From: Hymenobacter roseosalivarius DSM 11622
Lineage (GTDB): Bacteria; Bacteroidota; Bacteroidia; Cytophagales; Hymenobacteraceae
Assembly: GCF_900176135.1 (NCBI RefSeq)
Contig: NZ_FWWW01000091.1
Location: 124,001-188,000 of the forward strand
DNA length: 64,000 nt
Direction: 5' to 3'
Below are positions 13,229 through 59,700 of the stretch, in pieces. The notes beneath the pieces are model-generated. The model made no database searches. It was given only the letters and a program-made list of their open reading frames with translations, and had not been told where the DNA came from. Every line of letters starts with the position of its first letter. Positions within the stretch are counted from its first letter, which is position 1. The position numbers and the translations under genes are program-made.

Positions 13229-14170
13229 TTACGCCGCCTGTTCCCGCAGTAAATGACACTCCTTGTACTTCTTGCCGCTGCCGCACGGGCACGGGTCGTT
13301 GCGGCCAAACTTGCGCCGCCCGCGCAGCGTCTTGAGCCATTCGCGCGGGTCGGTGGCCAGACACAGAAAGCGCTTCTTGGGGTTCTGGCGCAGGGCGCGG
13401 GTGAGCAATTGATATAACTCGGGGTGGTTTTCCTGGAGCTTCTTGGGCTTCTCGAAGAAGTACTCCGTCACGACCGCGAAGAACTCGGCTTCGTTGGTGC
13501 CGGCGTAGGAGTTGATGTCGGACTTCCCATCGCGGATGGCTTCGATTTCACGCTGCATTACCTCGGCCCAGGGCTGAAGCAGCTCGGAGGACAAAGCCAG
13601 GGAGGGTACGCCGTCGATGACCCCGTCGGCCTGGTCGAGCAGGTGGGCAAACTCGTGGATGCCCACGTTTTGCTTGTCCAGCGAATCCTTAAAGCCCTGC
13701 TCCAAAGAGGCCTTAGAAAGATGCATGTAATGAGAGGTTTGGAAGTTGCGCACGCTGCCCAACAGCTGGCCCTGCATGGGCGCGGTTTCCGTGTTCGGGT
13801 CGCGGGGCTCGCGCCAGGCATCAGGCACAATAAGTACCTCACTCAGGTTGCCGTATTCCCATTCCGGAAAGCCAAAAACGGGAATGATGGCCGAGGCCGC
13901 CACCAGCACCCGCGTGGTGTCGTCTACTTCGGTCTGGACGCCGGTGATAAGGATTTGGGCCAGAAAAACCTGTACGGCTTTCTCAAAGCGCTGCTTCTCA
14001 TTTTTGGTAAGAGAAAGGTAGAAGGCCACACGCTCCATCAGAATGCGTCGCCACTCAACGGAGAATTCTTCGGCCAGCGCCGCGCTTCGCACGCGCGAAT
14101 CGCGGGTAATATAGCGGTAGAAAAGAAAGATAAGGCCGCCGATAATGGCCAGAAATATAGCGTAGCTCAT
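13229..14170 (-). CDS. MtfA-like zinc peptidase with C-terminal SEC-C zinc finger
   Basis: The N-terminus holds one membrane segment (about residues 3-20). A DgsA anti-repressor/MtfA-type domain follows, with the zinc motif [10 protein letters not shown] and the downstream acidic stretch [17 protein letters not shown]. The C-terminus is a SEC-C motif, [16 protein letters not shown], a small zinc finger also found at the end of SecA. The fusion of MtfA and SEC-C occurs in many Bacteroidota proteins. It is expected to be a membrane-anchored protease; the substrate is unknown. The ATG at 14170 is well placed before the membrane helix. Confidence 0.9.
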
Positions 14171-15004: not shown

Positions 15005-15334
15005 CTAAAGCTCCGGCAAGAAAGGCTGCAGTCGCTCCCTAAGCAACTCTTGAAGCATTGGGTCTTGAAATTGATAATTGTCGGGGATGCGCAAACAGAT
15101 GACGGGCTTGCCGGCCAGCTGGGGGGCAAATTTGGCCCGCAGGCGGTCGGTGTGGCGGCGCTCCATCACGAAAATGATATCAGCCCAGCCCAGATGCCCG
15201 GCCGTAACGCGCACCCTAGCGCCCGGCTCGGTGCCGGCACCGAGCCGGGCGCTAGGGTGCGCGTTACGGCCGGGCAGGCGCTCAGCGGTGAGACCGCGCC
15301 AGCGGTTCTGGCTACAGATAAAGAGGATCTTCAT
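15005..15334 (-). CDS. Low-molecular-weight protein tyrosine phosphatase-like protein, rewritten by a palindrome
   Basis: The protein begins MKILFICSQNRWRG and ends IPDNYQFQDPMLQELL, matching the roughly 110-residue LMW-PTP-like family of Bacteroidota and proteobacteria. The phosphate loop keeps Cys-X5-Arg (CSQNRWR), but the next residue, normally Ser/Thr, is Gly, and the usual SPTAE reads GLTAE. The segment between AERL and GTEPGARV is an exact reverse-complement copy of the following coding segment (see the 82-bp palindrome), yet the frame and length are preserved. I start at the ATG at 15334 because the family begins MKILF; the longer frame to 15391 adds 19 unrelated residues. Activity is doubtful. 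Confidence 0.75.
   Translation of the reverse strand: MKILFICSQNRWRGLTAERLPGRNAHPSARLGAGTEPGARVRVTAGHLGWADIIFVMERRHTDRLRAKFAPQLAGKPVICLRIPDNYQFQDPMLQELLRERLQPFLPEL
15195..15276. repeat. 82-bp perfect palindrome inside a coding region
   Basis: Bases 15195-15235 and 15236-15276 are exact reverse complements with no spacer (centre GTGCCGGCAC). As a result both strands encode the same peptide, GRNAHPSARLGAGTEPGARV, across the centre. It lies fully within the phosphatase-like gene. Confidence 0.93.
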
Positions 15335-56764: not shown

Positions 56765-59700
56765 TTATCTGGCACAGATTCCCCGGTACGGGCAATACTG
56801 GCACCGCGTCAAATCATCGGTTTTGCGGATCGGCTCGGCCGGGTCCAGGATGCGGTGTACGAAGTTGGTCAATAATTCCTGGCCTTTGTCGAGGAAGGAG
56901 GTGCCGTCTGCGGTCAGGAAGCCCATTTCGGCCGTCATGGGGCCGGCGCTGAGGTTGCGCAGGGAGATAATGGCGGCATCGGCGGCGGGGCGGCCCGTGC
57001 GCTCCAGCATGAAGCGGTAGAGCCAGAGCTGGCGCACTTTGTCGGCGGCGGGCGTGGCGTCGGTGAGCAGGCGCTGGGTGGCGGCGGCGGCGTCCTCGCC
57101 GCGCTTTTGCAGGCGCAGCTCGTGGGCCTGCACCAGGCCGGTTTTATAGTCTACCACGCGCAGGCGGCCGTCGGGCAGCTCATCCAGCCGATCGGCAATG
57201 CCGGAGAGGCGCAGGGTCAGCGTGTCGCCGCCGGGCAAGGTAACCGGAACGGTGGCTTGCAGGATCTCCTCTAAGCCATTGACGTGCAGCGGCAGAGCCC
57301 CAGCCTGCCCGGGCAGGCCTTCCAGGTAGCGGCGCACGAGCTGGGCCGCCACCTGACCCAGGACATGGTTCAGGCCTTCGTCGGGGCGGGCGTGGCGGTC
57401 GTCTTCTTCCTGGCGCATGGCGGAGGCTACCTCGGCGGGCACCTGCTGGAGCAGGGCAGGCAGGTCGGCGGCCGTCAGGGGGCGTTTTTCCTTAGCGAAA
57501 GGCCGCAGCAGGTTTTCCAGCACCGCGTGTACTACCGTCCCGAAGCCATCGGCCCCCAGCTTTTCCTCCACTTCCTCCGCCTCCTGAAACTTGGCCAACC
57601 GCGCGAAATAGAACTGCAGGGAGCAATTCAGGAATTGATTTAAAGCGGAAGGCGAGAGGCCGCGAATGAGCACCCCGCGCAGGGCGGTGAGCATTTCGGA
57701 GTCTTTTTCGAGCAGGAGGTCACCGACGGTGGCCTCACCCCCCGGCCCCCACTCCTCCGGGAGAGGGGGAGCCTGACGATTTTCCAAAGAGCCAGTCAGA
57801 ACGTCGACGTGAGGCTCCCCCTCTCCCGGAGGAGTGGGGGCTGGGGGGTGAGGTAAATCGTTGCCTACCGTCGCCACCACATCCCGCAGCACCAGGCCCG
57901 GGTTCTGGGGGGCTAAATCATTCTCAATCTGGAGCAAAAAGCGGCTGCGCTCGCCCGTGCGGGTGCCTTCAGCCCCTGGCAGCACATGCAGCAGATCTAC
58001 CTGGCGGGCGCGCTGGAGCAGACGCCAGAACTGGTGGGCGGTGGCGGCTTCGTGGTCGGCATAGGTGGGCAGGTTGAACTCACGCAGCACGTCGTAGGGA
58101 AAGAGGGAATTGCTGCGCTTGGGGGCGGGCAGCACGTTCTCGTTGCAGCTCAGAATGATGACGTGGTCGAAGTCGAGGGCGCGGGTTTCGAGCAAACCCA
58201 TGACCTGCACATCCGCAATCGGCTCGCCGCTGAAGGGCAGGCGGGTGCGGGCCATCTGCTCGTACAGAAACCGCCGGAATGAGCGCACCGACAGCCGCTG
58301 CTCCCGGCAATCGAAGACCGAATCCAGGCGCTTGACAAGGGTAAAAAACAGGTACAGATACTCCGCTTCAACAGCCGAATGCTGGTCCTGGTACGCTTTT
58401 TTGAGCAAATCAATGAGTGTGTAGCAGGCCGTGATGATGTCGTCGCAGGTGTCCCAGGTGGCAAACAGCGCCTCGATGAGCGGGTGCTGCCGGCCCAGCT
58501 GCAACAGCTCGCTGGCCGGCAGCAGCACCGCGTTGCGCTTGATGATCTGGTTGCAGACGTTTTCGAGCAGGCCGTGGTACTGGGGGGCATTTTCCTGCTT
58601 GTCGAGCCACTGCTGGTAGCGGCGCAGAAACGGGTGCTGCAGGAGCTTGGTGACGGCCAGATGATGGTAGCGCGGCACGCCGTAGCCCGTCTCGGCCGAG
58701 CCCTCCCGGATGCCGGTCAGGTGTACCTCGAACAGCAGATCGACCAGGTTAAACAGCGGCGTGCTCTGGAAGCTCAAACCCATCGTCACGTTGTACTCGG
58801 GCACCGCCTCGGGGGGCAAGCCATGCAGCACGGGCAGCAGCAGCGTCTCGTCGGGCAGCACGATGGCCACTTTGGCCCGCGGGTTCCGGAGGCGGGAGGC
58901 GGCCAGCAGTTGGCCGGCTACTTTGCCCTGCATGCTGGCGTTGGCCACGCCCACAAACTGAATTTCGCGGGGCAGCGTACGCAGCAAGTCGGGGAGGGCG
59001 CCAGTGGTGCTGGTGAAGCTCTCGGGGGGCAAATCCCACTGCTGGCGGTAGCGGCGCAGGTGCTGGCCGGCACGGTTGGGCGAGTCCTGCTCCAAATAAA
59101 ATGCGTCGCCATCGAAGCGCACTTCGGCCCGGCCTTGCTTGAGCAGCAGGCGAATAAGCTTTTCTTCGGCTTTGGATAATGAACCCAAACCCAAAAAGAC
59201 GTGCTGGGGGGCTTTTTGGCCATTATTCAGCATGTCCTGCACATGCTCCACGGCCAGGCGGTAGGCCAGGCCGGGGTAGGCCACGCCTTGCTGCTCCATA
59301 CGCTTACGTAGGCGCCAGTACACTTTTTCCAGGTCGTCCCAGAAGCGGAAGTAGGCGACTGTAGTGGTGGAAGGCGCGGGCATCTGCTCCAGCGCCCAGC
59401 GCTCTAGGGCTTTGGCCTCGGTGAGGTAATCGAAGACCTTGGATGGCTCAGCCAGATTCTGGTCGAGGTTGGAAAAATCCTGCAGCAGCAGCCCCGACCA
59501 GCCTACGAACTGGTCGAAATCCAGCTTCTTGTCAATATCACGCAGAATGTCGAACAGCAGGAGCTGCAAGGCAATGGGCTCCTCCACCTGCACGCCCGCC
59601 AGCTCTACCATGTAGTCTTCCATGGCCGCGATGCGCGGGCTCCACAGCGCCGTACCTACTTCGGTGGCCAGGGCCAGCTCATTTTTGAGGTACACTACCG

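Follow-up and report, generated by a model that had tools for sequence, protein, structure and literature searches.

A perfect 82-bp palindrome inside a phosphatase-like gene of Hymenobacter roseosalivarius, with a template switch as its probable origin

A gene for an LMW-phosphatase-like protein in Hymenobacter roseosalivarius DSM 11622 contains an exact 82-bp palindrome, one arm of which is ancestral gene sequence, whereas the other is its inverted copy, written over the segment that relatives carry in the same place. We consider it very likely that a single recent two-jump template-switch mutation, i.e., a quasi-palindrome mutation, produced it during replication. The gene lies in the window, the whole 64,000-nucleotide stretch that was analysed (contig NZ_FWWW01000091.1, positions 124,001 to 188,000), and positions below are those of the window unless another contig or locus is named.

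The palindrome and the gene that carries it

The phosphatase-like gene is encoded on the minus strand, from an ATG at 15334 to a stop at 15005, and yields a 109 aa protein in an intact frame, with a DEAD-box helicase gene on one side and a NUDIX-like gene on the other. The palindrome (15195-15276) falls wholly within this open frame. A repeat search of the window returned two arms of 41 nt each (15195-15235 and 15236-15276) that are complementary at 41/41 positions with a spacer of 0 nt, which bears out the original prediction, made from the letters alone, of an exact 82-base palindrome without spacer inside a coding sequence. Chance alone, with the base composition of the gene, would give about 1e-19 palindromes of this kind per 64 kb. 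The symmetry centre (15235/15236) lies on a codon boundary, so the same peptide is read from both strands across the palindrome; the window protein across the segment is ERLPGRNAHPSARLGAGTEPGARVRVTAGHLGWAD. The transcript would bear a very stable hairpin, with a folding energy of -131.4 kcal/mol and a z of -13.5.

The assignment of the protein to the LMW-PTP-like family proved right. The protein has a CX5R P-loop (C-S-Q-N-R-W-R, residues 7-13) and a predicted fold of the Wzb type, the best PDB matches of the AlphaFold model being Wzb (2wja, TM 0.75 by query). In both respects it is like the LMW protein-tyrosine phosphatases of the Wzb type, from which it differs in being short (109 aa), in having Gly instead of Ser after the P-loop Arg, and in having its helix-1/strand-2 link replaced. 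The change of the first residue after the P-loop Arg, which had also been noticed beforehand, is real. Codon 14 (15293-15295, minus strand), adjoining the catalytic Arg, reads GGT where near-invariant Ser (AGT) stands in homologs, a single A-to-G difference outside the palindrome that turns C-S-Q-N-R-W-R-S into R-G. The Ser/Thr that directly follows the P-loop Arg as an LMW-PTP feature is thus absent here, and the only other Gly seen at this position is in a broken copy of the gene in genome G048 (L219). The window's copy, at 16.4 bits, misses the curated Pfam LMWPc cut-off of 23.2 bits, and close relatives score over it (26.9-34.3 bits). In the AlphaFold model, which was built with an alignment of intact relatives and is biased towards their fold, the new segment (residues 21-30) has a mean pLDDT of 68, versus 95 in the intact homolog of the relative G062, and the remaining fold is Wzb-like. 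Because the near-invariant P-loop Ser is Gly and the predicted confidence drops from 95 to 68, the protein is probably impaired, with reduced or lost activity.

Ancestral and new sequence among relatives

Of 120 Hymenobacter genomes searched, 111 matched the gene and nine did not, some of the latter being incomplete assemblies; the gene is dispensable within the genus. The order helicase-ptp-nudix is conserved in G062 and G085, and in a third relative, G061, the gene is missing and its two neighbours lie about 50 bp apart. As a separate observation, homologs of the neighbouring gene 13229-14170 align as two overlapping pieces in G061 and G062 (L269:12926-13842 and L202:7506-8443), possibly owing to frameshifts in these two assemblies.

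An alignment of about 90 homologs from Hymenobacter and more distant groups tells the two arms apart. The homologs are gap-free through the segment, with the consensus ERLFDxHPHYEARSAGTEPGARVRVTAGHLGWAD. Read in the direction of the gene, the downstream half of the palindrome (15235-15195, minus strand), here called the donor arm, is ancestral. It encodes GTEPGARVRVTAGH, which had been judged to fit the family, and its protein is identical to that of relatives, the differences after the symmetry centre being synonymous only. The upstream half, or new arm (15276-15236, minus strand), is the exact reverse complement of the donor arm and has no counterpart in relatives, which confirms the proposal that it displaces their segment. 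Relatives fill the overwritten stretch with FDDHPHYEARSA (36 nt), in place of which the window has about 39 nt (15236-15274), a net gain of one codon. The original prediction also held that the protein keeps normal length and frame; the frame is indeed intact, but in this segment the protein has one residue more than all relatives. The outermost bases of the new arm, TG (15275-15276), match the ancestral Leu codon CTG. The flanks of the copied tract are unaltered, and the tract replaces sequence in place and is not added to it.

The palindrome itself was found in none of the other genomes among the 120 searched, where matches cover one arm and run only about 3-25 nt beyond the centre, so we rejected the possibility that it is ordinary family sequence. 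It occurs once in its own genome, which likewise led us to reject a mobile or repeated palindrome. Judged by sequence divergence, the event is recent and much younger than the split from relatives, because the arms have zero mismatches despite a dS to the nearest relatives of about 1.1 (G062) and 0.85 (G085). Outside the new arm, dN/dS is 0.035-0.06, which indicates that purifying selection acted on the gene until recently.

Origin of the palindrome

A two-jump template switch, a mechanism established in E. coli (PMC7202029) and yeast (PMC8604942), characteristically overwrites a tract in place with its neighbour's inverted copy and leaves normal sequence on both sides, which is the pattern seen here. 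A template switch had been suggested at the outset, and the homolog comparison supports it. In the proposed course of events, the nascent strand would have strayed from its template around the midpoint of a short, imperfect inverted repeat within the RSAGTEPG codons, or at the outer CTG in the case that the opposite strand was under synthesis. About 39 nt of the gene's own complementary strand would then have been copied before the nascent strand resumed its proper template at a position that matched. In this way the reverse complement of the neighbouring 41 nt would have taken the place of the 36 ancestral nt and left the perfect 82-bp palindrome. The net +3 nt would correspond to a 1-nt and a 2-nt bulge of the inferred quasi-palindrome, and the frame was kept because the net change is +3. 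Simple snap-back is less likely than a switch to the opposite strand or a start from a hairpin that was slightly out of register, given that no unpaired loop separates the arms. The outer switch point may have had 2 nt of microhomology, the TG at 15275-15276, and GCC at the palindrome centre is possibly another microhomology. Among the points against a template switch are the outer-junction microhomology of only 2 nt and the length of the copied tract, which exceeds that of the coding examples we found in the literature.

The quasi-palindrome that probably seeded the switch lies around the RSAGTEPG codons. Many homologs have an imperfect inverted repeat at the site (GCCCG-CTCGG--CCGGC facing GCCGGCACCGAGCCGGGC). 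In 26% of 87 homologs the complementarity of the left and right segments exceeds that of shuffles at p<0.05, in some cases with 0/300 shuffles, and the new segment is closer to the ancestral one than codon shuffles are (mean z 2.05, 79 homologs); the homologs are not independent, and these p and z values are indications only. In the two nearest gene-carrying relatives the signal for a quasi-palindrome is weak (L067, p 0.16; L068, p 0.43), and the seed in the immediate ancestor is therefore inferred from more distant homologs.

The main rival to a template switch is an artefact of library preparation or assembly, in which the inverted copy would stem from fold-back chimeric molecules or a graph error, the real gene being normal. 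Such an origin would suit a draft assembly of 122 contigs, probably from short reads, as well as the difficulty of sequencing hairpins and the entirely mismatch-free state of the palindrome. However, the palindrome lies mid-contig, 139 kb into 291 kb, and a simple fold-back would continue into the reverse-complemented gene without an in-frame return to the ancestral upstream sequence. Two chimeric junctions would be needed, both supported over the true sequence, and their k-mers do not exist in the normal gene. Nor does the scanned part of the genome have an excess of gene-internal palindromes. In a scan of 1.32 Mb of the genome, about 27% of it, and 1.2 Mb of relatives, the phosphatase-like gene's palindrome was the only long one inside a conserved gene within the 1.32 Mb, and the other long spacerless palindromes resemble intergenic terminators or repeats. 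Spacerless palindromes numbered seven in the 1.32 Mb, in line with four, one, and zero in 0.4 Mb each of G061, G062, and G085, so a genome-wide palindrome artefact was rejected. We regard an artefact as unlikely.

Two further explanations accept the sequence as it stands. The very strong transcript fold could speak for a selected function, i.e., an RNA hairpin or a protein site regulating the gene, but the fold is an automatic consequence of the palindrome, which is confined to a single lineage, recent, located within a coding region, and not conserved; we hold this to be highly improbable. Least probable of all is an inserted palindromic repeat element comparable to the Rickettsia palindromic elements or to REP/MITE hairpins. 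The genome does have dispersed intergenic hairpin repeats, including a family matched about 25 times, but the palindrome is present at one place only, one of its arms is the gene's own conserved sequence, and sequence was replaced, with a gain of only 3 nt. A template switch is the reading that we prefer.

Most other lesions found in the gene, across other Hymenobacter species, are at or near the palindrome site. G071 and G072 (L217 and L218) have a 1-nt deletion at or near the same codons, where a copy at one genome place (L047/L226) has a multi-base change leading to a stop, and the copy of G048 has lost about 35 nt at the same site, which breaks it; G073 and G065 have N-terminal losses. This tally, which is post hoc and amounts to about three independent lesions, suggests a lesion hotspot at these codons, although simple slippage could explain the 1-nt deletion case. 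We put forward only tentatively, and with some doubt, a combined proposal: that about 39 nt of a coding gene (13 residues) can be rewritten in frame by one template switch in a bacterium, that the resulting spacerless 82-bp palindrome can become fixed although the genome is SbcCD-positive, and that template switching recurs at the RSAGTEPG codons as a hotspot and has repeatedly inactivated the gene across Hymenobacter.

Persistence of the palindrome and comparison with known systems

Loss of SbcCD was rejected as the reason for the palindrome's survival, as sbcD and sbcC are adjacent and open in the genome; the sbcC match is under the curated cut-off, as it is in all but one of 14 control genomes. 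Hairpins equivalent to palindromes above about 20-36 bp are cut by SbcCD in vitro, and lethality has been demonstrated for a 460-bp perfect palindrome (PMC4245961). Given that length, and the perfect 78-, 74-, and 60-bp palindromes between genes in the same genome, the 82-bp palindrome is no anomaly. The original prediction's remark that such palindromes are unstable in bacteria is therefore only partly apt, 82 bp being far under the lengths lethal in E. coli.

Other palindromes and inverted repeats were seen along the way. A spacerless perfect 78-bp palindrome (L100:4057-4134, i.e., 84057-84134 of the same contig, outside the window) lies within a terminator-like hairpin, and its core GTGGTACTACGACTTTAAAGTCGTAGTACCAC belongs with a hairpin repeat that is dispersed between genes and occurs about 25 times in the genome; being intergenic, with a core from a repeat family, it was rejected as a parallel case. 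Within the window, a perfect 50-bp spacerless palindrome (1319-1368) between two convergent genes, whose ends are at 1300 and 1359, resembles a bidirectional terminator. A long inverted repeat at 57733-57853, with 46-nt arms (96%) of the CCTCACCCCCCGGCCCC type, resembles intergenic repeats in other contigs and in G085.

The palindrome appears to be a large, naturally occurring case of a known replication error, and what sets it apart is mainly its length and the preserved reading frame. It offers a natural record in which donor, product, and ancestor can all be identified, for a mutation class usually known from reporters or small clusters, and it would show the number of amino acids that a single replication error is able to exchange in one step. 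It also indicates that a perfect palindrome of 82 bp can survive, for a short time at least, despite SbcCD, and it serves as a warning that in protein alignments such changes pass for ordinary divergence.

With the Rickettsia palindromic elements, as cited in PMC6649704, the case shares palindromic DNA in frame in bacterial genes; those elements are multi-copy insertions, whereas the Hymenobacter palindrome is single-copy and derived from the gene itself. The coding palindromes of Nematomorpha mitochondria (PMC6649704) are likewise long perfect inverted repeats in translated genes, for which a template-switch origin has been proposed. There, however, both arms encode conserved residues and the repeats are numerous and up to 284 bp long; here, one isolated event in a bacterium replaced a moderately conserved segment. 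The proposed mechanism is that of quasi-palindrome mutations (Ripley; E. coli lacZ reporters, PMC7202029; yeast coding sequence, PMC8604942), in which an arm of an imperfect inverted repeat becomes exactly complementary to its partner through two polymerase jumps, with small indels from filled bulges. Unlike these, the Hymenobacter palindrome has no unpaired loop, and its 41-nt arms and approximately 13 changed residues compare with 16-nt arms and five residues in the largest yeast coding case (PMC8604942).
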